NCBI GenBank assembly: GCA_009937445.1
Contig: JAACFM010000008.1
Span: forward strand, 1-48,781
Source: Gammaproteobacteria bacterium
Lineage (GTDB): Bacteria; Pseudomonadota; Gammaproteobacteria; Steroidobacterales; Woeseiaceae
Length of the DNA stretch: 48,781 nt
Direction: 5' to 3'
In this document: piece after piece, positions 5,913 through 28,221 of the stretch
Position numbering within the stretch: the stretch's first letter is position 1
Layout: each line of letters begins with the position of its first letter
Notes under the pieces: generated by a model
What the model saw: only the letters and a program-made list of their open reading frames with translations
The model's database searches: none
Told to the model about the DNA's origin: nothing
Made by a program: the position numbers and the translations under genes

Positions 5913-5918
5913 AGGCCT

Positions 5919-9896: not shown

Positions 9897-11252
9897 ATGC
9901 TGAAGATCTGTTTGCTTTCGCCCAAAGGTCCGCTCTACCGTCATCGGGGCGGCATCTTTCGCAAATCATTGCGCTACTCGCCGTTAACGCTGCCGACTCT
10001 TGCGGCGCTCATTCCCACAGATATTGAACACGAGTTAACGTTATTCGACGAAGGTATTGAGGAGATACCCGCCGACCTTGATGCCGACATAATTGGCATT
10101 ACTGTGATCACCGGCACGGCGAAAAGATCATACGAAATCGCCGCACAGTTTCGGGCACGTGGCATTACGGTTGTGCTTGGCGGCCCGCACATCACCCTGG
10201 TGCCTGATGATGCGAAACCTCATGCAGATGCCATCGTCGTCGGCTACGCAGAAGATACCTGGCCACAGTTATTGCGCGATTTTCAAAAAGGTGCATTGCA
10301 GCCGCGGTATACGCAATCTCCGGATCTAAGCCTTGCCGGCCGACCTCGTGCGCGGCGTGATCTGATCCAGAGTAACCGCTACGCCAAGACGCACGTTTTT
10401 GAGGCCACTCGCGGCTGTGTGCATCGATGCGATTTTTGTGTCGTGCCCTTCGCCTGGGGACGCAAGCCATACCAAAAACCGGTCGCTGAGGTTATCGATG
10501 AGATTCGCTCTACCGGAGCAAGAAGGGCAATTTTTGTCGATCTGAACCTGGTCGCGGACAAGGACTATGCGACTGAACTCTTTGAGGCCCTTATTCCCCT
10601 GAAGCTCATATGGGCCGGCCTGGCCACTAATTTGCTCGCCCGCGACGAGCAACTTCTTGATCTTTGTGCCCGGTCTGGCTGCAAAGGAATATTGGTAGGC
10701 CTTGAGTCGATCTCCCAGCAAGGGCTTAAAGACATACACAAAGGCTTCAACACGCCGGAGTTGTACGCTGAATGGATCGAGAATTTTCACGCTCACGGAA
10801 TCGCGGTCAACGGCACCTTCGTTTTTGGCCTTGATGACGATACGCCTGAGGTATTTGAGCGCACCGCTGAATTTGTCATTGATACCGGCATAGACCTGCC
10901 GCGATTCGCCATCCTCACGCCGTTTCCGGGCACGGCTCTTTACAAGCGGCTAGAGAATGAAGGTCGCATTACGACCCGGGATTGGGAGCTTTATGATGGC
11001 CAGCACGTGGTATTCAAGCCTGCACAAATGAGCGCCGACGCTCTGCAAAAGGGCAACATGGCCACCTGGCGAAAGGTCTATGGATACCGTTCGATAGCAC
11101 AACGAATGCGTCATACACCTGTCTCCAAACTGATGTTTCTTGGCGCAAATATGGGCTATCGTTTTTACGCCAATCGACTCGACCAGTTTTACAATTGCGA
11201 CTGGCGTTTGATGGCCTCGCCGGTAGCATTGCGCTCTCAGGAGAGTCGTTGA
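9897..11252 (+). CDS. Cobalamin-binding-type radical SAM protein (rSAM1)
   Basis: A 451-residue protein. Residues 1-130 form a Rossmann-like domain of the B12-binding type (DIIGITVITGTAKRSYEIA, then VVLGGPHITLVPDDA), without the cobalamin His motif DxHxxG. The radical SAM core starts with CVHRCDFC; Cys174, Cys178 and Cys181 should hold the [4Fe-4S] cluster that cleaves S-adenosylmethionine. The region IFVDLNL replaces the FFVDDNI seen in the other three paralogues of this window, so it is the most divergent of the four. A C-terminal domain follows LTPFPGTALYKRLE, as in HpnP-like proteins. Known relatives methylate unactivated carbons (hopanoid C2/C3) or build rings. It is first in a five-gene operon; rSAM2 begins 2 bases later. 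Confidence 0.88.
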   Translation: MLKICLLSPKGPLYRHRGGIFRKSLRYSPLTLPTLAALIPTDIEHELTLFDEGIEEIPADLDADIIGITVITGTAKRSYEIAAQFRARGITVVLGGPHITLVPDDAKPHADAIVVGYAEDTWPQLLRDFQKGALQPRYTQSPDLSLAGRPRARRDLIQSNRYAKTHVFEATRGCVHRCDFCVVPFAWGRKPYQKPVAEVIDEIRSTGARRAIFVDLNLVADKDYATELFEALIPLKLIWAGLATNLLARDEQLLDLCARSGCKGILVGLESISQQGLKDIHKGFNTPELYAEWIENFHAHGIAVNGTFVFGLDDDTPEVFERTAEFVIDTGIDLPRFAILTPFPGTALYKRLENEGRITTRDWELYDGQHVVFKPAQMSADALQKGNMATWRKVYGYRSIAQRMRHTPVSKLMFLGANMGYRFYANRLDQFYNCDWRLMASPVALRSQESR

Positions 11253-11254
11253 TC

Positions 11255-12637
11255 ATGCCCGGAACGGAATTCAGGCTGACGTTGATCCATCCCTGCGTTG
11301 GGCGCTGGGCCGGCGACAAGAAATACATCCGCAGTTGGCAGATGGAACCGCTGGCACCGGCAGTACTCGCCGGCTTGACGCCGCCTGATATCGATATCCA
11401 GTTTTATGACGACCGGCTTGAGGCAATACCGTTTGATGAATCGACAAACCTCGTCGCGATCAGTATCGAAACCTATACCGCGCGCCGAGCCTACCAAATT
11501 GCAAGCGAATACCGGAGCAGGGGCGTCCGTGTTGTTCTCGGCGGCTTCCACGCAACGCTCTGCCCTGAGGAAGCGGCCCTGTATGCCGATGCTGTTGTTA
11601 TCGGTGAAGCTGAAGCCCAATGGGCCGCGCTAATAGACGATGCCCGTCACGGCACGTTGAAGCAGTTTTACCGGCAGCCAGAACGGCCACCGCTGGATAA
11701 GACCCGTCTGGACAGAAGTATCTTCCTTGGCAAACGCTACTTGCCGATTACACTTATTGAAGCCGGACGCGGCTGCCACTTTCGCTGTGAGTTTTGTGCG
11801 GTGCAGTCCTATTTCAACGCAACCCAGGTGCGTCGACCCATCGACCACATACTCGAGGAAGTGCACAACACCCGGAAACGGGGCGGGTTTTATTTCTTTG
11901 TCGATGACAACATCACGTCGAATTTTGACGAAGGTAAGGAATTGTATCGGCAACTGGCCAAGTACAAGATTCGCTGGGTTTCCCAGGCAAGCATCAACGC
12001 GGCCCACGACGAGGAGTTTTTGCAACTCATTTCCAGGAGTGGCTGCGAAGGCTTACTGGTTGGTTTCGAGAGTCTGAATCGCGAAACACTCCGGCAAATG
12101 AAAAAGAAGTTCAACACGATGGGTGGTGGATATGAAAAAGCTTTAAACAATCTGAATAAATACAACATCCGGCTTTATGCGACGTTCGTATTTGGCTACG
12201 ACCAGGACACCGCCGAAACCTTTGCTGCGACTTTGGAGTTCGCAAACAGACACAAATTCTTTATGGCCGCGTTCAACCACCTCACCCCGTTTCCCGGTAC
12301 GCCACTTTACAAACGCCTGGAGGAACAAGGGCAGCTACTTTACGACGCATGGTGGATGGACCCGGCGTATTCCTATAACAAAATGCCGTTCAAACCTGCT
12401 TTGCTCGAGCCGGAGGAACTGCAACAACTTTGCATCGAAGTTCGAGCTCAATTTTACTCCACGAGGAATATCTTGCGGCGTTTCACTAACCCGGTAAATC
12501 GCTCGAACTTCTTTATGGCGCGTCAATACCCGCTTATTAATTTCATGATGCGGCGTGAAGTACACCAGCGCAACGATTTGCCACTCGGCGACGAGGGATG
12601 GAATGGCTCGCTGGTGCCGCAGCGGGAGTGTGCGTGA
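11255..12637 (+). CDS. Cobalamin-binding-type radical SAM protein (rSAM2)
   Basis: A 460-residue paralogue of rSAM1. I chose the ATG at 11255, preceded by AGGAGAG and 2 bases after the rSAM1 stop, over a possible upstream start inside rSAM1. The N-terminal B12-type domain shows FYDDRLEAIPFDE, ISIETYTARRAYQIA and VVLGGFHATL. The cluster motif is CHFRCEFC (Cys174, 178, 181), followed by YFFVDDNIT and LTPFPGTPLYKRLEEQG. The C-terminal domain contains DAWWMDP and FKPALLEPEELQQLC, motifs shared with the paralogues at 19055-20368 and 22642-23973 and recalling HpnP-like enzymes. The substrate is unknown, and I infer a lipid or acyl chain from the desaturase, GH3 and PAP2 neighbours. Confidence 0.88.
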   Translation: MPGTEFRLTLIHPCVGRWAGDKKYIRSWQMEPLAPAVLAGLTPPDIDIQFYDDRLEAIPFDESTNLVAISIETYTARRAYQIASEYRSRGVRVVLGGFHATLCPEEAALYADAVVIGEAEAQWAALIDDARHGTLKQFYRQPERPPLDKTRLDRSIFLGKRYLPITLIEAGRGCHFRCEFCAVQSYFNATQVRRPIDHILEEVHNTRKRGGFYFFVDDNITSNFDEGKELYRQLAKYKIRWVSQASINAAHDEEFLQLISRSGCEGLLVGFESLNRETLRQMKKKFNTMGGGYEKALNNLNKYNIRLYATFVFGYDQDTAETFAATLEFANRHKFFMAAFNHLTPFPGTPLYKRLEEQGQLLYDAWWMDPAYSYNKMPFKPALLEPEELQQLCIEVRAQFYSTRNILRRFTNPVNRSNFFMARQYPLINFMMRREVHQRNDLPLGDEGWNGSLVPQRECA

Positions 12638-12650
12638 CGAGGGCTGTGTG

Positions 12651-13766
12651 ATGTCGGCTAATCTGGAGTTCGAATTAGCGACAGCCAGTACTGAGGGCGA
12701 TTTTCGCCAGCTGCTCAGAGAAAATGCCCTCGCTGGCAATATCAATCTTTTACTCACAAGAGAACCGGACGCATTTCATGCGGCGGCGATTTCAGGTGAC
12801 CACTACGAGCTGATGCTCGCTTACCGGCAGAACCCTCGGCAACTCGTCGGTGGCGGCGCACGATTCGAACTTGATGCTTACGTCAATGGAGACATCACAC
12901 GCATCGGTTATCTCGGCGAGCTGCGTGTGCACGGCGGATTTCAAAAGCGCAGGACCTTGCTGCTGGAAGCGTATCGCGCAATGCGCAAACGTCATGAGGC
13001 TGGCAATGCCGCCGCCTACATAACCACGATTATTTCGGACAATAAATCGACTCGCCGTCTACTCGAAGCGGGCCTCTCCGACATGCCGACCTACCAGCCG
13101 CTGGAGGAAATGGTGACGTTGACGATTCCTGCACGTCAGGCGGCGAAAGCCCGTACTCCGTCCATTCAGGTTGAACAGGACCCTGCTATACGGATCGACG
13201 AACTTGCTGAACGGCTAAGCGCAAGCGGCCGCGACTACCAGTTTCACCCGGTTTGGACTACCGAGACCTTGCTATCTCCTGAGCGTTGTCGCGGTATTTC
13301 CCCCTCGGATTTCTTTGTCGTTAGGGATGGCGACCGCATACAAGGTGCGCTGTGTTTGTGGGATCAGCGCGCGTTCAAACAGTCCGTTGTGGCTGCCTAT
13401 TCAAGGCAATTGGCACGGGCACGACCATTTTTTAATCTCGTCGCACCGCTACTGCGACAACCACGCTTGCCGCCGCCGGGGCAGCAGCTGGAAAGTGCTT
13501 TCCTGTCACACCTGTCAGTGGACCCCGATGACGAAGCGACACTGCTCGCACTCGTGCGGAAAGCTGGCGAAAGCGCAGTCAGTCGTGGAATCAACTACAT
13601 CATGCTCGGTCTCGCTGGCAGAAGTCGATTTTGCGAGATGTTGCAGAAGCGGTTTTCCTGCCACCGCTATGCAAGCATGATCTATCTCGTTTACTGGCAA
13701 GATGGCCGTGAATTCGCGTGTAAGATAGATGACCGCATACCGCATCCGGAGATGGCTATTCTGTGA
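12651..13766 (+). CDS. GNAT-like acyltransferase
   Basis: A 371-residue cytoplasmic protein. The ATG at 12651, 13 bases after the rSAM2 stop, is preferred over upstream starts that lie inside rSAM2. The first half reads as a GNAT fold: YELMLAYRQNPR, IGYLGELRVHGGFQKRRTLLLEAYRAM (a beta strand then the acyl-CoA-binding loop region) and YITTIISDNKSTRRLLEAG, a typical GNAT ending. The second half has a second, weaker GNAT-like pattern (SDFFVVRDGDRIQGALCLWDQ ... LSHLSVDPDDEATLLALVRKAGESA), so it may be a tandem GNAT. Such enzymes move acyl groups from acyl-CoA or acyl carrier protein to amines. Its stop overlaps the GTG start of the next gene as GTGA (13763-13766). Confidence 0.7.
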   Translation: MSANLEFELATASTEGDFRQLLRENALAGNINLLLTREPDAFHAAAISGDHYELMLAYRQNPRQLVGGGARFELDAYVNGDITRIGYLGELRVHGGFQKRRTLLLEAYRAMRKRHEAGNAAAYITTIISDNKSTRRLLEAGLSDMPTYQPLEEMVTLTIPARQAAKARTPSIQVEQDPAIRIDELAERLSASGRDYQFHPVWTTETLLSPERCRGISPSDFFVVRDGDRIQGALCLWDQRAFKQSVVAAYSRQLARARPFFNLVAPLLRQPRLPPPGQQLESAFLSHLSVDPDDEATLLALVRKAGESAVSRGINYIMLGLAGRSRFCEMLQKRFSCHRYASMIYLVYWQDGREFACKIDDRIPHPEMAIL

Positions 13767-14488
13767 AGGGACAATTTCTTAAGCGCAGCGTCATAAGCGA
13801 TGCGACGAAAGCGCAAATGTACCGGTTGTTCTGTTCGCAGTTCGAAAATGTGTCGATGCAGCAGTTCGTCGCCGACCTTGACGAGAAGAACTGGGTATTG
13901 CTCCTGCACAACAAGTCGGGCGACCTGATCGCTTTCTCCAGCATGCATGTCTATGAGACACAGATCGGCGACCGCAACGTAACGCTCGTGTATTCCGGTG
14001 ACACCACCGTTGACAGCAGCACCTGGAGCGACTCGGCTCTCAGCTACAACATCATGGGCGCATTTTCCTGGTTGCAGCGCCACTACAATACCGATCACCT
14101 TTACTGGTTTTTGCTCGTATCCGGTTATCGAACGTATCGGCTTTTGCCAGTATTCAGTGAGTATTTTTATCCGCGATTCGACGCACCAACACCACAGTCG
14201 ATCCAGGTCATGATGAATGCGATGGCAAGCGAACGCTTCGGCAGTAATTACGACGCCGAGTCGGGTATCGTTCGTCTTGATGTTCCATCAGTACTTAAAG
14301 ACGGGTATATCGACATTCCTGAAAATCGACTGGCTGATCCGAACGTCGCTTTTTTTGCCGAACGCAATCCGGGACATCTGCAAGGCGACGAATTACTTTG
14401 CTTTGCTGAGCTTGCGGAGAGCAAGCTCACGCGACTTGGCAAACGAATGTGGCAAAAAGGTCAGAAGCTGTTTCCGGATGACGCATGA
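13763..14488 (+). CDS. Uncharacterised protein of radical SAM/GH3 operon
   Basis: I do not recognise this 241-residue protein. It starts with GTG inside the stop of the GNAT-like gene (GTGA overlap), which implies translational coupling. It has no signal peptide or membrane segment. The N-terminal half (VLLLHNKSGDLIAFSSMHV, NVTLVYSGDTTVDSSTW, HLYWFLLVSGYRTYRLLPVF) has the alternating strand pattern of a GNAT or acyl-carrier-linked acyltransferase without an obvious acyl-CoA loop; the C-terminal half is rich in charged residues. Its stop overlaps the ATG of the GH3 gene (ATGA, 14485-14488). The tight overlap on both sides suggests that it works with the GNAT-like and GH3 proteins, perhaps as a second transferase or a subunit. 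Confidence 0.7.
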   Translation: MKGQFLKRSVISDATKAQMYRLFCSQFENVSMQQFVADLDEKNWVLLLHNKSGDLIAFSSMHVYETQIGDRNVTLVYSGDTTVDSSTWSDSALSYNIMGAFSWLQRHYNTDHLYWFLLVSGYRTYRLLPVFSEYFYPRFDAPTPQSIQVMMNAMASERFGSNYDAESGIVRLDVPSVLKDGYIDIPENRLADPNVAFFAERNPGHLQGDELLCFAELAESKLTRLGKRMWQKGQKLFPDDA

Positions 14489-16077
14489 AGTTTTCTGCCA
14501 CACTCGGAAACGTCAGTTGGCTGGCAGCCAGTCTTCCCGAGTACCGGCGATTCAAGCGCGACAGTCTGAATCTCGAGAGAACCCAACGACGTCGACTTAA
14601 TGAATACCTGCGGCGCAATGCGGATACTGCCTTCGGCTTGCAGCACAATTTCGCGGGCATCGGCAGCTGGGAAGAATATACAGAGCAGGTGCCGATTCGC
14701 AGTTACGATGACTTTGAGCCGTGGATTTCGCGAATTGCAGCAGGCGAACAACAGGTCTTGACGCAAGACCCTGTGCGGCTATTCGAGCCTTCCAGTGGCT
14801 CATCCGGCCCGGCGAAACTAATACCCTACACGCAGTCGTTGCAGAACGAGATCCGGCGGGGCGTCGCAGCGTGGTCGGCGAACAATTTTCTTTCTCAACC
14901 AGAATTGCTGACCGGACGATCCTACTGGTCGTTAACACCGCAAATGGACGCTATTGAGAATAGTGACTCATCCATACCTGTCGGCTTTGACGAAGACAGC
15001 GCCTACCTCGGTGGGGTAACGCGACATCTGATCAATCGCACTCTGGCGACAAAATCAGCATTGCGGCTGGTGAGTGATATGGATGTGTTTTGGCACTTGA
15101 CGCTGCTGATGCTGCTGCAATGCCCGGATCTGCGATTTATTTCGGTTTGGCACCCCTCATATTTCGGCCTTCTCATTGAGCGCATGCGAACGAGCTGGCC
15201 CCGCTTGCTGCAGGACCTTGAAGCCGGTTATGAGATCACAAATCCCGCTGTGCGGATTCCCCGGGACCCGGCGCGTGGGCGCGACCTGCGGTCAATCGGA
15301 TGCGACAATCTGCACCTGATTTGGCCCAGGCTGAGCACGATAAGTTGCTGGACCGACGGCCACGCGGCAACTTATATACCGCAGCTGCGCGAACTCCTGC
15401 CCAATGTGACTCTTCAGGCTAAAGGGCTTGTGGCGACGGAAGGATTCATTAGCCTTCCATTCGATAACTTGCGGCCCCTGGCCGCGCGCAGTCATGTCTT
15501 CGAGTTTCTGGACAGTAGCGACAAACTATTCGCACCCTGGCAACTCGAGAAAGGCAAGGAATATTCGGTGGTCATCACTACCGGTGGCGGTCTCTATCGC
15601 TACCGCCTGGGCGATCGCATCCTGGTTGATGATTTCTTCGGTGAGTTGCCATGCTTCTGCTTCGTGGGCAAAGAAGATCAGGTGGTCGATTTCTATGGCG
15701 AGAAGCTGAATGAGAATTTCGTTGCCACTGTGCTCTCTGAGGTACTTGGAAAAAGCGATCTTGAGCCGCGTTTTTCCCTGCTCGCTCTCGAGGACACACT
15801 CACGCCTCCGGCCTATGTAGCCTATCTGGAACTCGACGGTGATATACCCGACTCACTGGCAGCGCAAATTGATCAGGCGCTGCGCGATAATCCACACTAC
15901 GATCTTTGTATCCGGCTCGGCCAGCTCGCAAATGCAGAGGTCAGGCGAGTCCGGAGCGACGCCTTTAAGCGTTACTCACAACGACTCTCGAAGATGGGAA
16001 TGCGCTTGGGCGACATCAAACCAACACCGCTCAGCAAGCATAGTGGATGGCACCAGTGGTTTGGCATAGAGAACTAA
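14485..16077 (+). CDS. GH3-family acyl-adenylating/acyl-amide synthetase
   Basis: A 530-residue member of the GH3 (auxin-responsive promoter) family. SSGSSGPAKLIPYT at about residues 109-122 is the ATP-binding loop of the ANL superfamily; ATEGFISLP is the second nucleotide motif, and VITTGGGLYRYRLGD the third. GH3 proteins adenylate a carboxylic acid and pass the acyl group to an amine, usually an amino acid. In bacteria they are poorly studied and appear in natural-product and lipid clusters. It is last in the five-gene operon that starts with rSAM1, so its substrate may be the acid modified by the radical SAM enzymes. Its TAA stop overlaps the stop of the opposing exporter gene. Confidence 0.85.
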   Translation: MKFSATLGNVSWLAASLPEYRRFKRDSLNLERTQRRRLNEYLRRNADTAFGLQHNFAGIGSWEEYTEQVPIRSYDDFEPWISRIAAGEQQVLTQDPVRLFEPSSGSSGPAKLIPYTQSLQNEIRRGVAAWSANNFLSQPELLTGRSYWSLTPQMDAIENSDSSIPVGFDEDSAYLGGVTRHLINRTLATKSALRLVSDMDVFWHLTLLMLLQCPDLRFISVWHPSYFGLLIERMRTSWPRLLQDLEAGYEITNPAVRIPRDPARGRDLRSIGCDNLHLIWPRLSTISCWTDGHAATYIPQLRELLPNVTLQAKGLVATEGFISLPFDNLRPLAARSHVFEFLDSSDKLFAPWQLEKGKEYSVVITTGGGLYRYRLGDRILVDDFFGELPCFCFVGKEDQVVDFYGEKLNENFVATVLSEVLGKSDLEPRFSLLALEDTLTPPAYVAYLELDGDIPDSLAAQIDQALRDNPHYDLCIRLGQLANAEVRRVRSDAFKRYSQRLSKMGMRLGDIKPTPLSKHSGWHQWFGIEN

Positions 16078-18338
16078 GCGGCTCGACCGGTCAACAGTCG
16101 TGTCGGCAATAGTCGCAGCGCAGCAGGAACTAACAAAAGATCCGCCACCAGTGCAACGACAATGATCAGCGCGGTTATTCCGCCGATTTGGCGGCTCGGC
16201 ATGAAACTACCAAGCAGTAATACGGAAAAGCCAACCGTCAGTAACAATGAAGTTACGACAATTGGACGGCCGATGTCAGCCACGGCGCGATTAATAGCGA
16301 CCGCAATATCCGATGTATTACAAAGCTCGCGACTAATAGCGGTCATGAAGTGCACCGTATCGTCGACGACAATGCCCAGCGCGACCGCCGTAACCATGAC
16401 AGTGCCGGGATTCAGGGCGACACCGAAATACGCCATTGCGCCAAGCCCAACAAGCAGCGGAATCAGATTGGGGATCAACGACAGCAGACCGAGTGCCGCA
16501 GAGCGCATTAGCAGAAACATGAGAATTCCGATGACGAGCAGTGCAACGGAAAAGCTCTCAATCTGGCTGCGGATCACATAGTCCTGCATTTTTCCGACGA
16601 GCACCGCGTACCCGGTCATCCGTATCTGCAGCTCATCGTCAGCAAACTTATCTTGCAGCAGAGTTCGTATGGCGGGTGTCTGCTGGACGACATTTTGTGC
16701 TCGATCGACGGGAATGCGGGCAGAAATTCTTGCGCTTGAAAAATCTCCCTGAACCCAGTCATCCAGCTGTCCCTCCCTCTGAATGCTTTCGAGCATTGCA
16801 TCAGTCAAGAATTGCGATTGCGGCAGTGAGTATCCGTCGGCGCCCGCGTCACGGGCGATGCGTGTGGTCTCCTTTACTACACCGACTATCGAAATAGTCC
16901 GGGTAATGTCGGTGTTTTGCACAAGCCAGGTCTCGAAATCATCCAACCTCCTCAGCATGGCCGGTGAGTTCAGATTCCCCCTTGGCGCCGAAACCAAAAA
17001 CTCCATAGACAGGCTGCCACCGAAGGCTTTATCCACCTTTGCAGTCGCCGCACGATACGGGTCGTCCGCAGGAAACCAGGTGAGCGGATCAACCCCGACC
17101 GTGATTCGGGTTGCTGACCAGCTACAGGCTACGACCAGTAGTAGCGACACGGCTACAATCGTCTTTGGCCGCTGCGCTGACCACCCGGTTACGCGTATCA
17201 GCAGCGCCGTCAGTACACTGCTTGTGCTACCAGCCCTGTCCCGGTCTGCTGTTGGAATGATCAAAAGCAAGGTCGGGACCAATGTGAAGCTGATAACAAA
17301 CGCGGCGAAAACACCGATGGCTGCTACGACGCCGAACTGCCGTACCGGTGCAATATCACTGACCAAGAGTGCCAGCAAGCCGATCACGGTGGTTACCGTG
17401 GTAAAGAAACAAGGCCGTAACAATCGCAGCAGACTGTTGCGTACTGCACCGCGGCGATCTTGTCCCGCAGCAATTTGCTGGCGAAAACAGATAACCACAT
17501 GAATGGTATCTGCGACCCCCACAGCCAGAATTAATGGCATCAACATTGCCGACAGCATCGTCATTTGCCAATCCGCTACGCCCATAAAAGCGAAGCTCCA
17601 GACTACGGCTATGGTGACAACGGTGAGCGGTAGCAATGACAACCAGATACTACGCAACACAGCAAAGGTGAGCGCCAGGATAATAAGAACCATAACAGGT
17701 ACGAGAACACGCATATCCCTTTGGTTCTTGGCTTGTCCGGCCTTGCCGATTACCGGCGCGCCACTCAGGACAAAACTAACGCTTGTGTTGTCAGTTTCCC
17801 GTTCGGCAATGTCGTTGAGCGCTGCAACGAAGCGGCCCTTCACCTCAGCACTTTCACCAGTGCGGGCAAGATGGACAACAATAGCGGCACCGGTGCCATC
17901 CGATGAAACCAGCGTTCCGTTAAGAACCGGGCTGGCCATGACTGTTTCGCGAAACTGCGGGTCGAGAAAACCGTGTTCCAGTCGCGCTGCCAGCGCGGAG
18001 CGAGTGATTGAATTGACTCGATAGGTGTGTTCAAGCTCTGCTGCGGCGGTCGAAATTCGATCGACAACGGACAAACTGACTTTGTCGAATATGTCCTCGT
18101 GAAAGACACCGACAACCACAATCTGATCAGCCTGAAATTGTTGCGAAAACTGCTCATAAATAATGAGCTCCGGATCATCATCGGAAAACCACAGTTCGAG
18201 AGCATTGTCGAAGTGGACCTGTGAAACCGGCAATACGGCGGCGACGGTGAGCAGGCCTACGACCGCGGCCAAATAACGGCGCCGTTCAAGAATGAATGTG
18301 GTGATGTAGTCAGTCACCAGACACTGCGTTCCACACAT
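16074..18338 (-). CDS. MMPL/RND-superfamily exporter
   Basis: A 754-residue inner-membrane protein with the RND plan: one N-terminal helix, a large periplasmic loop, five to six helices, then the same again. The two helix blocks carry ILAVGVADTIHVVICFRQ and ALGIVVDDTVHFMTAISREL, the matching positions of the two repeats. The size and motifs fit the MMPL/HpnN-type branch, which moves lipids or hydrophobic molecules to the outer leaflet using the proton gradient, rather than the larger AcrB type. It is third in the minus-strand operon rSAM3-membrane protein-exporter (39-base gap upstream). I infer that it exports the product made by the surrounding enzymes. Confidence 0.85.
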   Translation of the reverse strand: MCGTQCLVTDYITTFILERRRYLAAVVGLLTVAAVLPVSQVHFDNALELWFSDDDPELIIYEQFSQQFQADQIVVVGVFHEDIFDKVSLSVVDRISTAAAELEHTYRVNSITRSALAARLEHGFLDPQFRETVMASPVLNGTLVSSDGTGAAIVVHLARTGESAEVKGRFVAALNDIAERETDNTSVSFVLSGAPVIGKAGQAKNQRDMRVLVPVMVLIILALTFAVLRSIWLSLLPLTVVTIAVVWSFAFMGVADWQMTMLSAMLMPLILAVGVADTIHVVICFRQQIAAGQDRRGAVRNSLLRLLRPCFFTTVTTVIGLLALLVSDIAPVRQFGVVAAIGVFAAFVISFTLVPTLLLIIPTADRDRAGSTSSVLTALLIRVTGWSAQRPKTIVAVSLLLVVACSWSATRITVGVDPLTWFPADDPYRAATAKVDKAFGGSLSMEFLVSAPRGNLNSPAMLRRLDDFETWLVQNTDITRTISIVGVVKETTRIARDAGADGYSLPQSQFLTDAMLESIQREGQLDDWVQGDFSSARISARIPVDRAQNVVQQTPAIRTLLQDKFADDELQIRMTGYAVLVGKMQDYVIRSQIESFSVALLVIGILMFLLMRSAALGLLSLIPNLIPLLVGLGAMAYFGVALNPGTVMVTAVALGIVVDDTVHFMTAISRELCNTSDIAVAINRAVADIGRPIVVTSLLLTVGFSVLLLGSFMPSRQIGGITALIIVVALVADLLLVPAALRLLPTRLLTGRAA

Positions 18339-18377
18339 CGTCCACCATCATCATTATTCCTCGGGCTCGACTATCCT

Positions 18378-19058
18378 CTATTTCCGCTTGATTTCATGTT
18401 TGTATGACGTGAGCCCCGACTCGCCATAGCGAATCCGGTGCACGGCAAGATATAGAATTGTTGGCACGGCGATGAGGGCGACACCGCCGGTCAGGCCAAT
18501 GCCCCAGTACAGTGCTGAACTGTGCTCCGTCAACAAAAGACTCTCTGCCGTCTTTACCATGGCGCCATGCACCGCACCCATACTGCCAAACAGGACAGGC
18601 GCATAATCAGTTACTGCCTCCTCGGCAGATGCGCCGTCCGCGATTCGCTTTGTGTAAATCGAAATAAAGCCCGATTTGATCGCGTAGGTTTCGTACCACC
18701 AGTTCCAGAAACCGAATACCGATCCGACAATAAAGGCGGCTGTCAGAACACTTCCGACACCGGTTTGATCGACCGGTATCAGGCGTAATGACAGATAGGC
18801 AAAAAGCCCTGTCGCCGTGCCAATTACAAAGCCATGATGCGGCCGTAGCCCCCTAATGGTCGGCCAGGTGTTCATTTCCCATAGCTGCAATCGCACAATG
18901 CCGATAATCACGAAAATGTAATAGGCAATGACCGGGACGAAGATCACCAATGCTGTAACTGCATGATCGCCGCCCAGGCGGCCTAACCACAGCCAATAGA
19001 CGAATGGAAAAACGAGCACAGGTACGACAAATTGATAAATCTGGTAGAAGCGATTCAT
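18378..19058 (-). CDS. Uncharacterised polytopic membrane protein
   Basis: A 226-residue protein with about six hydrophobic segments (for example VPVLVFPFVYWLWLG, ALVIFVPVIAYYIFVIIGI, GIGLTGGVALIAVPTILYLAV). I do not recognise the family. Its ATG overlaps the stop of rSAM3 (ATGA on the minus strand, 19055-19058), so it is translationally coupled to that radical SAM protein, and the exporter follows 39 bases downstream. A loop between helices has FGFWNWWYETYAIKSGF, rich in aromatic residues and suited to a membrane interface. It may be an accessory part of the exporter or an integral-membrane lipid enzyme; no catalytic motif is evident. Confidence 0.75.
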   Translation of the reverse strand: MNRFYQIYQFVVPVLVFPFVYWLWLGRLGGDHAVTALVIFVPVIAYYIFVIIGIVRLQLWEMNTWPTIRGLRPHHGFVIGTATGLFAYLSLRLIPVDQTGVGSVLTAAFIVGSVFGFWNWWYETYAIKSGFISIYTKRIADGASAEEAVTDYAPVLFGSMGAVHGAMVKTAESLLLTEHSSALYWGIGLTGGVALIAVPTILYLAVHRIRYGESGLTSYKHEIKRK

Positions 19059-20368
19059 TCTCCTGACCCGCCGAGCGCTCGTTTTTGTTTTCGATAGATT
19101 TCGCGGCGTGACACGAAATTGGAAAGCAAATACACGCCTGCGCGAAACGGTGTCCGGCTGTTGGTGCGGCGGTCACCGAGACGGATGCATATCGACTTGA
19201 ATGTGTTGAACTTTTCGCGAGCGGAAAAACATCCTTTGGTCAGCTCATCGGCCGTCATATTCAAGGGCTGCATCGTCGCATCGCCGTACTTGAAATCAGG
19301 ATCCAGCCACCAGCGATCATGCAACAGACGGCCCTCGCGCTGCATCTGATCGAATAATGGTGCGCCTGGAGTCGGTGTCAATGGATTGAAGTTGGCGAGT
19401 ATGAATTTGTGTCTGATCGCAAAATCAACAGCGGCGTCAAAACTCTCAACCGTGTCGTTGTCACAACCGAAAACAAATGTGCCATACAGCATTATTCCCG
19501 CGTTCTGAAAGACTTCGATTGCATCATCATAAGACTGCCACTTGACGTTCCAGCCCTTTTTGATTTCCTTAAGGCTGGCAGGGTCAAGAGACTCGATGCC
19601 TATCAACGCGCTGATACACCCGCTCTTTGCCATTAACTGAACCAGATCAGCGTCTCTTGCGACATCAATCGAAACCTGACAGGACCATTTTATATTCAGG
19701 GGGATCAGTGCCTCGAATAACGCTCTGGCCTTTTCAACATTAACAAAAATATTGTCGTCGACGAGAAAGATATGCTTGCGTCCGGACCGTCTAATGTCCT
19801 CAACGACATCCGCTACCGGGCGTTGCCGCAGGTTGTTTCCGTAGAACGCGCGGATCGAACAAAAAGAACAGTTAAATTTGCAACCCCGGCCGTATTGGAC
19901 CAAAGCCATTGGGGCGTATTTTTTTCCTTTGAAAATCGATCTGTCCGGAATGACGTTCGCAAGGTCCGGGAATTCGGCACTCTGATAAACCTTCGCCAAA
20001 CAATTGTTCTTCGCGTCTTCGAGGATTTGGCCCCAGACTCCTTCAGCATCGCCTTGTACTACTGCGTCCGCATGCTGCAAAGCTTCATCCGGCAAAAATG
20101 TCGGATGATAGCCACCAAACACGACCGGGATTCCGAGTTCGCGATACTGTGCCGCTATCTGATAGGCCCGCCGAGCGGTATAGGTCTCGACAGTCATTGC
20201 TACGAGGTCAGTTTCTGCGTCGATCGGTATTGGTTCCAGACGTTCGTCGTAAAAACTTGTTTCGACATTGTCAGGTGTCAGCGACTTTAGAATCGCAAAA
20301 CACAGCGGTTCCATCGCATCAGACGAACGGTCGTCGTACAAGTTTGGGCGGATGAACCTAACCTTCAT
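19055..20368 (-). CDS. Cobalamin-binding-type radical SAM protein (rSAM3)
   Basis: A 437-residue paralogue of rSAM2 and rSAM4. I chose the ATG at 20368, which opens MKVRFIRPN like the paralogues and has GGAG upstream, over a TTG start 39 bases earlier. The N-terminal B12-type domain has YDERLEPIPID, VETYTARRAYQIA and VVFGGYHPTF. The cluster motif is CKFNCSFC (Cys163, 167, 170); then come IFLVDDNIF, LTPTPGAPLFDQMQREG and the C-terminal WWLDPDFKYGDATM ... ADELTKGCFSAREKF. It is first of the three-gene minus-strand operon and is divergent from the PAP2 gene across a 113-base gap. A carbon-modifying reaction on a lipid is inferred from context. Confidence 0.87.
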   Translation of the reverse strand: MKVRFIRPNLYDDRSSDAMEPLCFAILKSLTPDNVETSFYDERLEPIPIDAETDLVAMTVETYTARRAYQIAAQYRELGIPVVFGGYHPTFLPDEALQHADAVVQGDAEGVWGQILEDAKNNCLAKVYQSAEFPDLANVIPDRSIFKGKKYAPMALVQYGRGCKFNCSFCSIRAFYGNNLRQRPVADVVEDIRRSGRKHIFLVDDNIFVNVEKARALFEALIPLNIKWSCQVSIDVARDADLVQLMAKSGCISALIGIESLDPASLKEIKKGWNVKWQSYDDAIEVFQNAGIMLYGTFVFGCDNDTVESFDAAVDFAIRHKFILANFNPLTPTPGAPLFDQMQREGRLLHDRWWLDPDFKYGDATMQPLNMTADELTKGCFSAREKFNTFKSICIRLGDRRTNSRTPFRAGVYLLSNFVSRREIYRKQKRALGGSGE

Positions 20369-20481
20369 GGGTATTGCGAGCTCCAGCGAATATGCCCCTC
20401 TCGACAAGCAGTTTAGCAGGCCATGATCGTTGATCAGGTAATCCTTGCAAATTCTTTAATGCTAGAGGCACTATCAAAAGC

Positions 20482-21111
20482 ATGCCGAAGCCATCCCCAT
20501 CTGCAATAAGCAGCAAGTGGAAAACCTATTTTTACTGGGTTTTCTGGATCAGCATTGCTTTTTTCACGGTTTATCCGCTGTGTAACTGGCTAACGTCAAA
20601 ACGTGACAGCACCTTTGACCTTTACCTTAGCTTTGAACTGCATGCTCCGTTTGTGCCCGAATTCATCTGGGCTTACTTGTCGTTGTACGTGTTGTTCATT
20701 ATTCCGCCGTTCTTTCTGGGCCGTTTACAACTGGAGATTCTTGGCAAACAGTTGCTTGCGGCAACGATATTGTCGGGAGTCGTTTTTCTGTTGTTTCCGG
20801 CGACCCTTGGCTTCGAGCGCAGCAGTCCATTAGACCCATTCTATAGTGCGCTTTTTGACAATCTTTTCGCGGTGGATTTGCCACACAATATGGTGCCCTC
20901 GCTCCACGTCGCCTTCAGTGCCTTGATTCTGCTCACTCTGGCAAAATACGTCGAGCACATTTCTGCCAAGGCCATTTTTCGGATATGGCTTGTGATAATC
21001 TGCGTGTCAACAATTCTCGTACATCAGCATCACATGCTCGACGTGGCCACGGGATTGTTAGTGGCCATACTTTTCAATCGTACTATCGGGAAAGGTGGAC
21101 ATCATGTGTAA
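20482..21111 (+). CDS. PAP2-superfamily membrane phosphatase
   Basis: A 209-residue inner-membrane protein with about six helices. The phosphatase motifs are NMVPSLHVAFS (PSxHxxF-type motif 2, proton-donor His) and HQHHMLDVATG (motif 3, nucleophile His with its Asp). A weak motif 1 may lie before them. The motif spacing recalls PAP2_3 and inositol-phosphorylceramide-synthase-like proteins, which remove phosphate from lipid phosphates or transfer head groups. The gene appears richer in A and T than its neighbours. It overlaps the next gene by 8 bases and is divergent from rSAM3. A role in removing a phosphate from a lipid intermediate of the cluster is inferred. Confidence 0.82.
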   Translation: MPKPSPSAISSKWKTYFYWVFWISIAFFTVYPLCNWLTSKRDSTFDLYLSFELHAPFVPEFIWAYLSLYVLFIIPPFFLGRLQLEILGKQLLAATILSGVVFLLFPATLGFERSSPLDPFYSALFDNLFAVDLPHNMVPSLHVAFSALILLTLAKYVEHISAKAIFRIWLVIICVSTILVHQHHMLDVATGLLVAILFNRTIGKGGHHV

Positions 21112-21700
21112 ACGTCTTTTCGCTATTTTGTTACTCATCAGCAGTCCTGTGCTCGCGGCACAAGAAGCCAATCACGCAATTCACGAAGAGTTACGCGGCG
21201 TGTTAAGTGGCATACAGGATGCGGTCAATGCTCAGGATTACGGCAGCATCGCGCCGTACTTTCATGAGAACCTCAGCATCACAACAATTAATCAGGAAGT
21301 CATTTCTACGCGCGCCGAGATAGAACCTTATTTCGACAAGTGGTTTGGCGAAGGCGGGTATCTGAAGACGCTCAGGATGTCACTTGATGCCGATGACCTC
21401 ACAGAATTTTACGCCGATACGACATTTGGCATCGTGCGCGGCTCTGGTGAGGAAGATTACGTGCTGTCTGACAGTCGTTCCTTCCCCATGAAGACTCGCT
21501 GGACCGCGACCGTCATCAAGGATACTGACGGGAAGTGGCGAATTTTGACGCTGCATATAGGCACCGATTTTCTTGACAATCCAATCCTGGCAGTCGCTGA
21601 AAACTCTACAAAATACTTCGCGATGGCCGGTGGCGCCGCGGGACTCGTGCTCGGACTACTGATTATGTTTTTGTGGGGTCGCAGCAGAAAGGCCGCGTAA
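21104..21700 (+). CDS. NTF2/SnoaL-like protein with signal peptide and C-terminal membrane anchor
   Basis: A 198-residue exported protein. The ATG at 21104 follows AAGGTGG and gives MCKRLFAILLLISSPVLAAQ, a clear signal peptide; an in-frame GTG nine bases earlier is less likely. The mature part looks like the NTF2-like cone fold: IQDAVNAQDYGSIAPYFHENLSITT, then ISTRAEIEPYFDKWF and KTRWTATVIKDTDGKWRILTLHIG. It ends with a glycine-rich membrane helix (AGGAAGLVLGLLIMFLWG) and RSRKAA. NTF2-like domains bind hydrophobic molecules or act as simple isomerases. An anchored periplasmic version fits lipid transfer or final processing. It starts inside the PAP2 gene and its stop abuts that of the opposing desaturase. 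Confidence 0.75.
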   Translation: MCKRLFAILLLISSPVLAAQEANHAIHEELRGVLSGIQDAVNAQDYGSIAPYFHENLSITTINQEVISTRAEIEPYFDKWFGEGGYLKTLRMSLDADDLTEFYADTTFGIVRGSGEEDYVLSDSRSFPMKTRWTATVIKDTDGKWRILTLHIGTDFLDNPILAVAENSTKYFAMAGGAAGLVLGLLIMFLWGRSRKAA

Positions 21701-22645
21701 TCAGGGGAATTTCAACGTAGCTGGCGCCCCCATGGGTGGCGCCGGTCGCGCACCGCCCCAAAGTCGAAAATAAATGCGCCAGAACGTTGGTTGAGGTTGC
21801 TCCGGGTCCACCAATTCGGGCAAATACACCCACGGTGCGCGTGGGTGGCAGTGGTGCGCCAGATGATAGTGGTAGTTCAGCGCCAGACCGCGCGTGAGCG
21901 GCAGCGCTTTGAGATTCCATGCACCGTGAATCACGTCGCGAGGACTCCAGGCATGGTCGACATATTGCAGCGCCGACCAATGCAGGGCAAAGGCCCAGTA
22001 GCATAAGAGCCAGCCCTGCCACGTCAGATCCAGAAGCAACCACAGGGCAACGTGATAGCTAAAGGCGTAAAGGCATTCAAACCAGATCTTCAATCCTGAA
22101 TGCTGTGCAATGTCGCGTATGTAGGGTTCGAAGCCCAGCTGGCGCGCAGGCCCCTCGATGAAGGCGCGTGAGGTATACAGCCAGGGCGCCACAAGATAGA
22201 TAAGGTTGCTTACAGGAATGCTGAACCAGTAAAAACCCAGAAGATTGCCGGCGTAGACCTGGAAATTACGCTGCGCCTTGGATTGGTTCGGCAAGTAGTA
22301 GTCGTATAGCTCTTCGTCGGTGCGATTTCGCCGATGATGTCCAAGATGTGCAATTTTCTGCAGCGTGAATGAGGTAGGCAATGCCGGTGAGCACAAGGTA
22401 CCGAAAATGTCATTGCGCGTGCGGTTGCTGGAGAAGACACCGTGAACGGCTTCGTGCATTAGCGAAAACGGCGTGTGATTGACCAGCGAAAATGCCCAGG
22501 CTGCTAACAATGCCCAGCCAATCGAACTGTGAGATGCAATCCACAAGAGTCCCCATGTCGCGGGAAGTGCGAGCATAAATATTGCGATATTGCGTTTCTC
22601 AGGTATCTCGTATGTTGCGTTGTCGGGCATAGCAAGCGCGCTCAT
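21701..22645 (-). CDS. Membrane fatty-acid desaturase/hydroxylase
   Basis: A 314-residue di-iron membrane enzyme. The three histidine boxes are present: MHEAVHG, HLGHHRRN and HYHLAHHCHP, separated by two pairs of hydrophobic helices. These ligate the two irons that activate oxygen for desaturation or hydroxylation of acyl chains. The ATG overlaps the stop of rSAM4 as ATGA on the minus strand (22642-22645), so it is coupled to the radical SAM gene; an internal ATG five codons later is less likely. The pairing suggests that the two enzymes act on the same acyl chain. Which bond or lipid is attacked cannot be read from the sequence. Confidence 0.87.
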   Translation of the reverse strand: MSALAMPDNATYEIPEKRNIAIFMLALPATWGLLWIASHSSIGWALLAAWAFSLVNHTPFSLMHEAVHGVFSSNRTRNDIFGTLCSPALPTSFTLQKIAHLGHHRRNRTDEELYDYYLPNQSKAQRNFQVYAGNLLGFYWFSIPVSNLIYLVAPWLYTSRAFIEGPARQLGFEPYIRDIAQHSGLKIWFECLYAFSYHVALWLLLDLTWQGWLLCYWAFALHWSALQYVDHAWSPRDVIHGAWNLKALPLTRGLALNYHYHLAHHCHPRAPWVYLPELVDPEQPQPTFWRIYFRLWGGARPAPPMGAPATLKFP

Positions 22646-23973
22646 TTCAGACCGAATCGCATACCGTGTTTTTGATACACCTCACTGCGGAAAATTGAGC
22701 TGTATTTCCAGTAAACGGCAACACGTTGCAGCGTACGCAAGTTCGTCTTGAGGTCGGAGAAGCGATGAAACATTGACGGAATGCTGTTGAATTTCTGGCG
22801 GGCAGCGTGACAGGCGTTTGTTAACTCATCCGGCGTCATATTCTTTGGCACAAAGGCCGCGTCATTAAAACGATAGTCGGGATGCAACCACCACTTGTCG
22901 TCGTATAGCAGTCTTCCTTGCTGGCGCAATTCCTCGTAATGCGGTGTTCCCGGATACGGCATGAGGATATTGAACGCGGCCAAGGTAAAACGATTCTCAA
23001 GAGCAAAATCGAGCGTTGCCATAATGGAATCATAGGTATCATTATCGTAGCCCAGCGTAAACGCGGCCCAGGTCTGCATACCGTTCGCTCGCAGCACTTT
23101 TATCTCGTGCTCGTAATTCGAGAACGCTGATATATTTGGCGACTTCTTCGTTTCCTTCAGGCTATCGAGCGTGATCGATTCAAATCCGGTGACATTGCCA
23201 AGACATCCGCTGTCGGCCATCAGCTTCATGAGGCCTTCATCTTTTGTTACGTCAAGACTTGCCTGACTGACCCAGCTTATGCGCATTGGAATCAATGCGT
23301 GACACAGTTCTTTCAGCGCCTTTGGGTGTGACGCAATATTATCGTCAACAAAAAAGAACAGTCGTCGGTCCTGTGCTTCAATCTCACGTAACACTTCATC
23401 TATCTGGCGAACATAATGGGTGCGGTCGAAATATTGAGTAACAGCGCAAAACTGGCAGGTAAATCGGCAACCACGAATATATTGCAGCAGGGTTACCGGC
23501 AAATAGCCTTTTCCCTTAAACAGATCTCTCCGTGGCAACACGCCACCAATTTGACCGATGCCCGGTGGACCGCGATAGACTTTTTGTAATTTGCGGCGAC
23601 GAGCATCCTCTACTACCTGTGCCCAGACAGTTTCTGCATCGCCAATGAAGATGCTGTCCGCATGCTCTTGGGCTTCTTCCGGAATGAGCGTCGGGTGCAT
23701 TCCGCCGAGAATGACCTGCACACCACGTTGGCGGTATTCCTCGGAAATTTCGTAGGAGCGGCGGGCGGTGTAACTCTCTACGGATATCGCAACCAGATCG
23801 GTCGGCTCGTCGAAAGGGATGGTTTCCATTCGATCGTCAAATAACTCGCATTCCACGTCCGGCGGCGTCATGCCAGCCAACACCGCGAGCATCAGCGGCT
23901 CCATGCGACCGTGATCAATGTATAGGCTATGTTCGCGCCGGCCTATATTTGGCTTGATGAAGGTGATCTTCAC
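22642..23973 (-). CDS. Cobalamin-binding-type radical SAM protein (rSAM4)
   Basis: A 443-residue paralogue of rSAM2 and rSAM3, opening MKITFIKPNIGRREH. The N-terminal B12-type domain shows FDDRMETIPFDE, ISVESYTARRSYEIS and VILGGMHPTL. The cluster motif is CRFTCQFC (Cys169, 173, 176), followed by FFFVDDNIA, LMPYPGTPHYEELRQQG and the C-terminal WWLHPDYRFNDAAF ... TPDELTNACHAARQKF. It is first of a two-gene operon with the desaturase, whose start overlaps its stop. As in the other three, DxHxxG is absent, as is usual for HpnP/BchE-type proteins, which can still use cobalamin. Confidence 0.88.
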   Translation of the reverse strand: MKITFIKPNIGRREHSLYIDHGRMEPLMLAVLAGMTPPDVECELFDDRMETIPFDEPTDLVAISVESYTARRSYEISEEYRQRGVQVILGGMHPTLIPEEAQEHADSIFIGDAETVWAQVVEDARRRKLQKVYRGPPGIGQIGGVLPRRDLFKGKGYLPVTLLQYIRGCRFTCQFCAVTQYFDRTHYVRQIDEVLREIEAQDRRLFFFVDDNIASHPKALKELCHALIPMRISWVSQASLDVTKDEGLMKLMADSGCLGNVTGFESITLDSLKETKKSPNISAFSNYEHEIKVLRANGMQTWAAFTLGYDNDTYDSIMATLDFALENRFTLAAFNILMPYPGTPHYEELRQQGRLLYDDKWWLHPDYRFNDAAFVPKNMTPDELTNACHAARQKFNSIPSMFHRFSDLKTNLRTLQRVAVYWKYSSIFRSEVYQKHGMRFGLK

Positions 23974-24208: not shown

Positions 24209-25849
24209 ATGAAATTTGGTCTTCTTGCAGCCCAATCCCTCCTCGGAACTGTACGGTTGGCGATAAAAGGGACAATCCTGGCCTCAATGTTGTCGCTCGC
24301 TGCGTGCGGCGGTGGCGGTGGCGTGTCCATACCCATACCCGATGGCGGTGGGTCTGGATTCCAGCCCGGCGTTTTTCTGGACTCCGATACGTATGCCGCG
24401 CAGTGCCAGGCGCCCCGCAGTGGTATCAATCCGGCGACAAACCAGTCGTATCCGGATATACAGGGAACAACGACTGACGAAAATAACTACCTGCGTTCGT
24501 ACAGCAACGAAACCTACCTCTGGTACGACGAGATTACAGACCAGGATCCTTCGGCGTACGACGACACGCTGGAATATTTCGATCTGCTGGTGACCGAGGA
24601 ATTGACGCCGTCGAATCAGCCAAAAGACAAGTTCCATTTCACCTACGATTCGGAAGTCTGGTACCAGTTGTCGCAGGGCGGCGTATCAGCGGGTTACGGC
24701 GCACAATGGGCTGTATTGTCACCCACGGTGCCGCGCGACATTCGCGTTGCTTATACGGAGGCCAATTCGCCAGCGACTAATCTTCCGCAGCCACTGGCGC
24801 GAGGCGCGATAGTGACTTCCGTCGATGGCTTCGACATAAACACTGATACCCAGGAAGGCATCGACGCGTTGAACGCGGCCCTGTTTCCGTCCGGCGTTGG
24901 TGAGGAACACACCTTCGGCATCCTCGACCTTGGTGCGGCCAACGAACGACTGGTAACGATGACCACGGCAAGCATTACGTCCGCGCCTGTGCAAAATGTC
25001 GATGTCATCAATACACAAACCGGTGTCGTTGGTTACATGTCGTTTAATGATCATATCGCCACCGCTGAGCAGGCGTTGATTAATGCTGTGAACTTTTTCA
25101 ATGCCTCAAATAACGGCCAGGGCATTGATGACCTGGTGCTCGATCTTCGCTACAACGGCGGCGGCTATCTGGCAATCGCGAGCGAGTTTGCCTACATGAT
25201 TGCCGGAGCAGCAGCGACCGCTGGGCAGACCTTCGAAGAAATTCAGTTTAATGATAAGCACCCGGTAACCAATCCAATTACAGGCCGGGCGCTCTCGCCG
25301 ACGCCGTTTTACAGCCAGACCCTCGGACCACCGTTTAACGCGATACCCGGTCAGGCGTTGCCGACCCTGGACCTGCCGCGTGTGTATGTTATTACGGGCG
25401 GAGGTACCTGTTCCGCCAGCGAAGCTATCATGAACGGTCTTCGCGGAATCGATGTAGAGGTTATTCAGATCGGATCGACAACTTGCGGTAAACCCTACGG
25501 TTTCTATGCTGAAGACAACTGTGGCACGACTTACTTTACGATCCAGTTCCGCGGCGTGAATGCCAAGAACTTTGGTGACTACACCGACGGGTTTTCGCCG
25601 GCCAATACACCGGCCGGTGAAGCGGGTACGGTGATACCCGGTTGCTCCGTAGCCGATGATTTTAACGAGCAGCTCGGTTCGGTACAGGAAGATCGTCTGG
25701 CAATGGCGCTCGCTTACCGCGACGGTCAAAGCTGTACGGCGCCTAGCGGCCTGGCATCTGGAGCAGTTCAATTCGCACAGCCGCTGAGGAATGCCAATGT
25801 CGTTGTGCCCAAATCGCCGTGGCTCACCAATCGGATATTGCTGCCATGA
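24209..25849 (+). CDS. S41-family (C-terminal processing) peptidase, lipoprotein
   Basis: A 546-residue exported lipoprotein. The signal sequence ends in the lipobox LSLAAC, followed by a glycine-rich linker (GGGGGVSIPIPDGGGSG). An N-terminal S41 helper domain and a PDZ-like segment (GAIVTSVDGFDIN) precede the catalytic domain. GGTCSASEAIMNGL aligns with the TASASEI motif of D1 processing proteases, placing the nucleophile at Ser402, and CGKPYG supplies Lys428, 26 residues later, completing the Ser-Lys dyad. Such lipoproteins degrade peptides in the periplasm or at the outer membrane. Its TGA overlaps the ATG of the next small lipoprotein gene (25846-25849). Confidence 0.87.
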   Translation: MKFGLLAAQSLLGTVRLAIKGTILASMLSLAACGGGGGVSIPIPDGGGSGFQPGVFLDSDTYAAQCQAPRSGINPATNQSYPDIQGTTTDENNYLRSYSNETYLWYDEITDQDPSAYDDTLEYFDLLVTEELTPSNQPKDKFHFTYDSEVWYQLSQGGVSAGYGAQWAVLSPTVPRDIRVAYTEANSPATNLPQPLARGAIVTSVDGFDINTDTQEGIDALNAALFPSGVGEEHTFGILDLGAANERLVTMTTASITSAPVQNVDVINTQTGVVGYMSFNDHIATAEQALINAVNFFNASNNGQGIDDLVLDLRYNGGGYLAIASEFAYMIAGAAATAGQTFEEIQFNDKHPVTNPITGRALSPTPFYSQTLGPPFNAIPGQALPTLDLPRVYVITGGGTCSASEAIMNGLRGIDVEVIQIGSTTCGKPYGFYAEDNCGTTYFTIQFRGVNAKNFGDYTDGFSPANTPAGEAGTVIPGCSVADDFNEQLGSVQEDRLAMALAYRDGQSCTAPSGLASGAVQFAQPLRNANVVVPKSPWLTNRILLP

Positions 25850-26903: not shown

Positions 26904-26905
26904 GG

Positions 26906-28213: not shown

Positions 28214-28221
28214 GTCGTTGC

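Follow-up and report, generated by a model that had tools for sequence, protein, structure and literature searches.

A conserved gene cluster of radical SAM, GH3 and GNAT-type enzymes in a Woeseiaceae genome, a candidate pathway for a modified acyl-amide

What do the twelve genes at positions 9897 to 23973 of contig JAACFM010000008.1 make? The contig, analyzed here over its whole length of 48,781 nucleotides (the window), belongs to a gammaproteobacterial genome of the family Woeseiaceae (assembly GCA_009937445.1; 3.29 Mb in 175 contigs, 90% complete), whose closest named relatives, as judged by r1, the first gene of the set, are mostly Woeseiaceae metagenome-assembled genomes (MAGs). A first-pass annotation had proposed that four B12-type radical SAM proteins (r1 to r4), packed with a GH3 enzyme, GNAT-like proteins (g3 and g4), an MMPL exporter, a PAP2 phosphatase, an NTF2-like protein and a desaturase, build and export an unusual lipid or acyl-amide. 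Open frames and Pfam matches (for g3 and g4, those of their alignment members) bore out this inventory, with the B12-binding domain of r4 and the NTF2-like match below cut-off. We found no description of the gene set in the literature searched, subscription journals and preprints excepted, and consider it highly probable that a conserved, so far undescribed biosynthetic cluster exists here. Our preferred reading, to which we give a probability of about 0.5, is a horizontally spread cluster for a modified, amino-lipid-like acyl-amide that serves as a specialized metabolite.

To delimit the cluster, genome contigs were scanned with a profile of the r1 alignment. The scan gave 135 relatives, of which the best 80 were kept, so that the sample leans to close relatives of r1; 52 of these loci were at least 15 kb long. 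At least 7 of the 80 came from genomes also met in the order-level or another search, and MAGs, with possible errors in title and binning, make up most of the records. Among the 52 long loci, r2 was present in all, g3 and g4 in 49 each and GH3 in 47. The other genes of the window were found less regularly: the desaturase in 30, r3 in 24, r4 in 23, the NTF2-like gene in 22, PAP2 in 20, the membrane-protein gene g7 in 14 and an MMPL gene of the window's type in 3. Two genes that the window lacks recurred as well, encoding a Rieske oxygenase (17 loci) and a hydrolase-like protein (14 loci), the latter read as an alpha/beta hydrolase although it matched neither Pfam nor NCBIfam. Record titles place the cluster in at least seven phyla. 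Distances between core genes were correlated in all ten pairs (Mantel r of 0.68 to 0.86; permutation p of 0.0005 each, which is the floor for 2000 permutations, host relatedness not being removed).

The conserved core is r1-r2-g3-g4-GH3, and the recurrence of this set across phyla is more than chance. That unrelated genes merely happen to be neighbors is therefore very improbable, even if MMPL and g7 do not belong to the set in general and one locus, L221, has no g3 or GH3 nearby. The first-pass annotation had the outline right but misplaced the emphasis. Co-occurrence, which it had suggested checking, held for the five core genes far beyond this genome, and the signature is not four radical SAM genes with MMPL, because two of the four are core, two form an optional pair, and a Citrobacter cluster has a fifth.

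In the window's order, r1 matches at an expectation value (E) of 1e-60 or better occurred in 24 of 296 genomes; 12 were orthologs (57 to 100% identity) and the other 12 reached 35 to 39% at best. All 12 ortholog carriers hold GH3, which was found at E of 1e-40 or better in 17 of the 296 genomes; 7 of the 12 belong to the window's genus and are thus not independent. Samples of the window's class and of the phylum of another locus, L067, not ranked by similarity and searched for r1 at E of 1e-120 or better, gave 4 carriers in 369 genomes and 6 in 288, respectively, counting in each case the genome of the window or of L067 itself. Eight other loci from these samples had GH3 nearby in 6 cases and g3 in 6; two of the eight (L218 and L220) are truncated because their contigs end there, and L219 is probably the same record as L107.

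The triad g4-GH3-g3 also recurs without r1 to r4, beside other tailoring oxidases. In the order, GH3 without r1 was found in G048, G063, G064, G242 and G276; it adjoins g3 and g4 in G048, G063 and G276, and g3 in G242. Pfam identified Rieske genes close to this GH3 in G048 and G063, and reading of the sequence did so in G242 and G276. Oxidative enzymes of variant clusters include Rieske, P450 and JmjC-type cupin proteins and a weak AurF match (27.8 versus 29.6 bits). More distant GH3 genes (26 to 29% identity; G104 and G110) stand without other cluster genes, and a Burkholderia GH3 locus (L127), whose other frames are poorly called, had no g3 or g4 match. Wider relatives of r1 (31 to 38% identity) are carried by plasmids of Synechocystis, Aureibacter, Treponema, Vibrio and Rhodobacteraceae. 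The four annotated ones lie in unrelated settings, that of Rhodobacteraceae beside genes for an acyl-AMP ligase, a P450 and an acyl carrier protein; the Vibrio record is unannotated there. A recurrent group of frames (median 512 amino acids, 10 loci, no match in the window) was set aside as presumed antisense frames.

Three further observations concern the neighborhoods of these genes. In an Acinetobacter record (L128, 11114-15996), labeled a 4.09-Mb plasmid and, judging from that size, perhaps a chromosome, g4-GH3-g3 without radical SAM genes adjoins export genes that resemble those for a membrane fusion protein, a major facilitator superfamily transporter and a TolC-like protein. Three Woeseiaceae genomes have, next to g3-GH3, a gene for an NQR2/RnfD-like membrane part fused to FG-GAP and ASPIC/UnbV repeats (L034, 5993-8710, by Pfam; L170, 5843-8566, and L171, 7413-10169, by eye). 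One cluster is flanked by a DUF3419 gene (L083, 17499-18695; 362.9 bits), a family that we take to be that of the betaine-lipid enzyme BtaA.

We then asked what the radical SAM proteins might do. The Radical_SAM domain scored above its Pfam cut-off in r1 to r4, and the B12-binding domain exceeded its 32.1-bit cut-off in r1, r2 and r3 (45.8, 38.2 and 34.4 bits) but not in r4 (29.9 bits). The CxxxCxxC motif was present in every alignment row (72/72 for r1, 64/64 for r2, 25/25 for r3 and 26/26 for r4). All four are thus B12-binding radical SAM proteins by both domains and the motif, the domain of r4 being below threshold. They share the B12-binding plus Radical_SAM order and CxxxCxxC with the BchE, HpnJ, HpnR, PhpK and ladderane-associated families. 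Unlike members of those families, they fall far under every curated cut-off: none reached those of the NCBIfam families tested (HpnJ, HpnR, BchE and TIGR04072), the best match being BchE to r3 at 107.7 bits versus 481.35. Proteins with this domain order are known to catalyze methylation, C-C joining, ring closure, and dehydrogenation or dehydration.

In a tree of 206 rows, r1 to r4 formed separate ortholog clades that each span phyla. r1 made up one clade, and r2, r3 and r4 were sister clades under one branch with 98% support in the Shimodaira-Hasegawa-like approximate likelihood ratio test; a single row, the r3 of L086, fell outside its own group. The tree was built by a quick method with few outgroups, chosen in part by taking the longest frame that has the cysteine motif. 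Several outgroup branches are very long (up to 10) and perhaps wrong frames, so that the placement of r1 and of r2 to r4 within the radical SAM families at large is provisional. r1, the only one of the four compared with solved structures, is nearest by sequence to AprD4 (6fd2), an unnamed radical SAM protein (9ccb) and TsrM (6wte), all of them distant (E of 1.6e-15, 1e-09 and 3.6e-07, respectively, with the r1 profile). The substrates of these three proteins are unrelated. The cluster offers four radical SAM ortholog groups outside curated families, with partners that make guesses at their substrates testable.

The first-pass annotation had drawn an analogy to HpnP and HpnR, which act on hopanoids. 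Modification of a hopanoid, sterol or carotenoid would fit the distant matches of the HpnJ and HpnR models to all four proteins, but these lie far under the cut-offs (best HpnJ match, 95.1 versus 577.6 bits). Nor were the substrates' biosynthetic genes in place. The squalene-hopene cyclase family PF13243, which we take to cover sterol cyclases as well, was found in none of the 12 order carriers, of which 9 have a completeness of 90% or more; the same search was positive in 2 of 14 named genomes used as a control. The squalene/phytoene synthase family was absent from the window genome and from 7 of the 12 carriers and present in 5. As no carrier has a cyclase-family gene and r1 to r4 lie outside the curated families, a hopanoid or sterol substrate is unlikely; so is a carotenoid or other triterpenoid, given the missing synthase in the window genome, although 5 carriers do have it. 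Altogether we give terpenoid substrates almost no credence. The analogy thus does not reach as far as the substrate.

The MMPL protein had likewise been compared to the hopanoid transporter HpnN. It belongs to the same MMPL family but scored far below the HpnN cut-offs (111.8 versus 751.85 bits for TIGR03480 and 60.5 versus 1100 for NF052374), and the search for a hopanoid cyclase-family gene in the window's genome was negative. Found in 3 of the 52 long loci, and seen also at G153 and G289, MMPL was rejected as a core member.

The remaining core genes point to amide formation. The N-terminal, middle and C-terminal domains of the GH3 protein scored 157.5, 54.6 and 45.8 bits against a Pfam cut-off of 23.6, which places it in the superfamily; residues that we take to be catalytic and nucleotide binding are kept in at least 90% of 58 alignment rows, and the profile matches plant GH3 structures. 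The first-pass reading of GH3 as an amide-forming type of enzyme is consistent with these features. Its score with the model for OlsH-type lyso-ornithine lipid synthetases was 41.5 bits versus a cut-off of 620 (NCBIfam NF052613), which makes it a distant relative of OlsH and not a member of that group. According to PMC12493201, OlsH of Singulisphaera acidiphila is a GH3-like enzyme that makes N-acyl-ornithine from a fatty acid, ATP and ornithine, and OlsI, an alpha/beta-hydrolase, is the O-acyltransferase of the pathway. The present cluster resembles that pathway in having a bacterial GH3-family enzyme within a small operon (PMC12493201). It differs in the partners of GH3, here a pair of GNAT-type proteins with between two and five radical SAM proteins; the terms "radical SAM" and "GNAT" do not occur in the main text of that paper. 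A lipid-like product is plausible, since OlsH, the only characterized bacterial GH3 enzyme we met, couples fatty acids with ornithine (PMC12493201).

The GNAT-like assignment was also upheld. Neither g3 nor g4 of the window matched Pfam, but 10 of 42 members of the g3 alignment matched Acetyltransf_1 and 10 of 42 of the g4 alignment Acetyltransf_9 (E up to 0.01 in both cases). An AlphaFold2 model of g4 (predicted local distance difference test score [pLDDT] of 95) found solved GNATs as its top Foldseek matches (E of 1e-06), with modest template modeling scores of about 0.4 over the query length, and g4 is accordingly assigned a GNAT fold. g3, also modeled at a pLDDT of 95, is probably a tandem GNAT, as suggested by the order of helices and strands in the model and by the matches of its alignment members. 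Weak matches of the single g3 sequence to Protein A-type chains and an epitope scaffold in the PDB were taken as noise.

Around this core, the accessory genes are organized in modules. r3 and r4 occurred together in 28 of the 80 loci, one alone in 1 and neither in 51, some of the loci being short. When 26 of the 51 genomes without the pair were searched for r4, 24 contained nothing above 48% identity, and 2 had a match of 60 to 61% on another contig. Among the 52 long loci, the Rieske gene was found in 2 of 23 with r3-r4 versus 15 of 29 without (Fisher p of 0.001), the hydrolase-like gene in 1 of 23 versus 13 of 29 (p of 0.001) and g7 in 12 of 23 versus 2 of 29 (p of 0.0004). The same comparisons, restricted to the 37 loci that have 7 kb on either side, gave p values of 0.024, 0.012 and 0.017, respectively. 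No link with r3-r4 was detected for the desaturase and PAP2 (p of 1.0) or for the NTF2-like gene (p of 0.16); none of these tests was corrected for relatedness or for the number of tests. r3-r4 is an accessory pair that tends to exclude the Rieske and hydrolase-like genes.

The window's own copy appears to be a mosaic. Its r1, r2 and r3 share 75 to 82%, 78 to 83% and 69 to 80% identity, respectively, with those of clusters G006, G023, G030, G031, G058 and G068, whereas its r4 is only 55 to 57% identical to that of five of these six and 71 to 72% identical to that of G043, G102, L109, L121 and G216. The latter clusters also hold the best matches among the compared contigs for the desaturase (54 to 68%), the NTF2-like protein (50 to 63%) and PAP2 (46 to 56%), and in the tree the window r4 groups with the type represented by L114 (G043). 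G031 shares part of the block on the r4 side (r4, 81%; NTF2-like, 60%). We read positions 20482 to 23973, comprising PAP2, the NTF2-like gene, the desaturase and r4, as a block that would have been replaced by recombination from a different cluster lineage.

A copy on a mobile element was found in Citrobacter portucalensis, whose IncFIB/IncFII plasmid NZ_CP134684.1 carries g4, GH3, r1, r2, g3, r3, r4, PAP2, the NTF2-like gene, a fifth radical SAM gene and the desaturase. The fifth gene is r1-like (L126, 23112-24425; 43% identity to r1); second r1-like genes (42%) are present in L222 (at 6210) and L223 (at 7858). A megablast search of the E. coli collection, limited to matches of about 85% identity or more, did not find the plasmid cluster.

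These data bear on the kind of product. A structural membrane lipid, similar to ornithine lipids and with methylated or cross-linked chains, would agree with the kinship of GH3 to OlsH, with PAP2, desaturase and MMPL as genes of a membrane-lipid type, and with the hydrolase-like gene of 14 of the 52 loci, which recalls OlsI (PMC12493201) if our sequence reading of it as a hydrolase and its presumed homology to OlsI are right. We nevertheless consider such a lipid unlikely. The cluster is rare and patchy (12/296 genomes in the order, 4/369 in the class), its tailoring genes differ from one cluster to the next, and one copy is on a plasmid, all of which led us to favor a specialized, exported metabolite. 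Slightly less likely again is a small non-lipid amide derived from an amino acid and modified by the radical SAM proteins and oxygenases, with PAP2 and the desaturase-type enzyme acting on the product or in accessory roles. The Rieske, P450, JmjC-type cupin and possible AurF-like enzymes of the variant clusters suit such a compound, and plant enzymes of the GH3 family use small acids, jasmonate and auxin for instance, as substrates, to judge by the names of the matched structures. Against it, desaturase-type and PAP2 membrane proteins recur in 30 and 20 of the 52 loci, and the one characterized bacterial GH3 enzyme mentioned above uses fatty acids (PMC12493201).

An acyl-amide whose carbons are modified by radical SAM enzymes has, in our estimate, an even chance of being the product. 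In the proposed pathway, GH3 would use ATP to adenylate a carboxylic acid, most probably a fatty acid, and couple it to an amine, for example an amino acid. Further acyl groups could then be added by g4, a GNAT, and by g3, probably a tandem GNAT, from coenzyme A or carrier-protein thioesters. r1 and r2, joined here by r3-r4, would remove hydrogen atoms from unactivated carbons of the product, which they would then methylate, connect to one another or close into rings. The desaturase-type enzyme might add a double bond or a hydroxyl, PAP2 would remove or exchange a phosphate at the membrane, and in the window's lineage MMPL may export the product.

Several observations weigh against this reading. 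GH3 was not seen in 5 of the 52 long loci and g3 not in 3, and L221 is a counter-example, with r1 (54%), a weak r2 (43%) and no g3 or GH3 in the 20 kb analyzed. Because GH3 scored so far below the OlsH cut-off, its fatty-acid or amino-acid substrate is proposed by analogy. Some radical SAM proteins with a B12 domain, AprD4 among them, do without cobalamin, so that methylation by r1 to r4 is hypothetical, as is export in general, since MMPL is not conserved.

The cluster may, tentatively and at slightly less than even odds, define a new cross-phylum class of natural products, acyl-amides built by GH3 and two GNATs without polyketide or peptide synthases and modified at unactivated carbons by a dedicated family of paired radical SAM proteins (r1-r2 and r3-r4), with an alternative oxygen-dependent set (Rieske and hydrolase-like) replacing r3-r4. 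A compound class from many phyla that is made without the usual assembly lines could have been missed by genome mining that targets those. Not every carrier in the scan is a MAG. At least Neoroseomonas oryzicola KCTC 22478 and Zhengella mangrovi X9-2-2 are named strains, which makes a direct search for the product possible.

The layout of the window's cluster is given in Table 1. All genes named in the first-pass annotation are open frames at the positions it gave; the starts of r2, g3, r3 and the NTF2-like gene are refined ones. The packing is as tight as had been described, with spacings of -8 to +39 bp between neighbors; only the divergent genes r3 and PAP2 are farther apart, at 113 bp.

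Table 1. Genes of the cluster, with their positions in the window.
Gene and predicted product	Position	Strand	Basis
r1, B12-binding-type radical SAM protein; core, own clade	9897..11252	+	Pfam; ortholog clade across phyla
r2, B12-binding-type radical SAM protein; core	11255..12637	+	Pfam; 52/52 long r1 loci
g3, GNAT-type acyltransferase, read as tandem GNAT; core	12651..13766	+	49/52 loci; Acetyltransf_1 matches of alignment members; AlphaFold2 model
g4, GNAT-fold acyltransferase; core	13763..14488	+	49/52 loci; AlphaFold2; Foldseek; Acetyltransf_9 matches
GH3-family acyl acid-amido synthetase; core	14485..16077	+	Pfam; 47/52 loci; profile versus plant GH3 structures
Putative MMPL/RND-type exporter; lineage specific	16074..18338	-	Pfam; 3/52 long loci
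g7, membrane protein without known family; travels with r3-r4	18378..19058	-	12/23 r3-r4 loci versus 2/29 without
r3, B12-binding-type radical SAM protein; accessory pair with r4	19055..20368	-	Pfam; pairing counts
Putative PAP2-superfamily membrane phosphatase or phosphotransferase	20482..21111	+	Pfam; PSLH and HQHxxxD kept
NTF2-like (DUF4440) protein; apparent signal and C-terminal membrane segment	21104..21700	+	Pfam below cut-off; segments read from sequence
Putative membrane fatty-acid-desaturase-type enzyme	21701..22645	-	Pfam; histidine boxes kept
r4, B12-binding-type radical SAM protein; accessory pair with r3	22642..23973	-	Pfam; nearer to another cluster lineage than window r1-r3

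MMPL, PAP2 and FA_desaturase scored above their Pfam cut-offs. At least 90% of the alignment rows retain the PSLH and HQHxxxD motifs of PAP2 (18 rows) and the box histidines of the desaturase (29 rows); the NTF2-like protein reached 23.8 bits with DUF4440, under the cut-off of 25.2. The first-pass annotation had left g7 unnamed, and this membrane protein had no Pfam match.

The cluster is adjoined by a gene for an S41 peptidase (24209-25849), unmatched in the compared gene maps. Farther out, one flank (2479-7508) encodes a coenzyme A (CoA)-transferase, a thiamine pyrophosphate enzyme and a GMC oxidoreductase, and the other (26229-30072) a cupin, a class III aminotransferase, a thiolase and a CoA-transferase.

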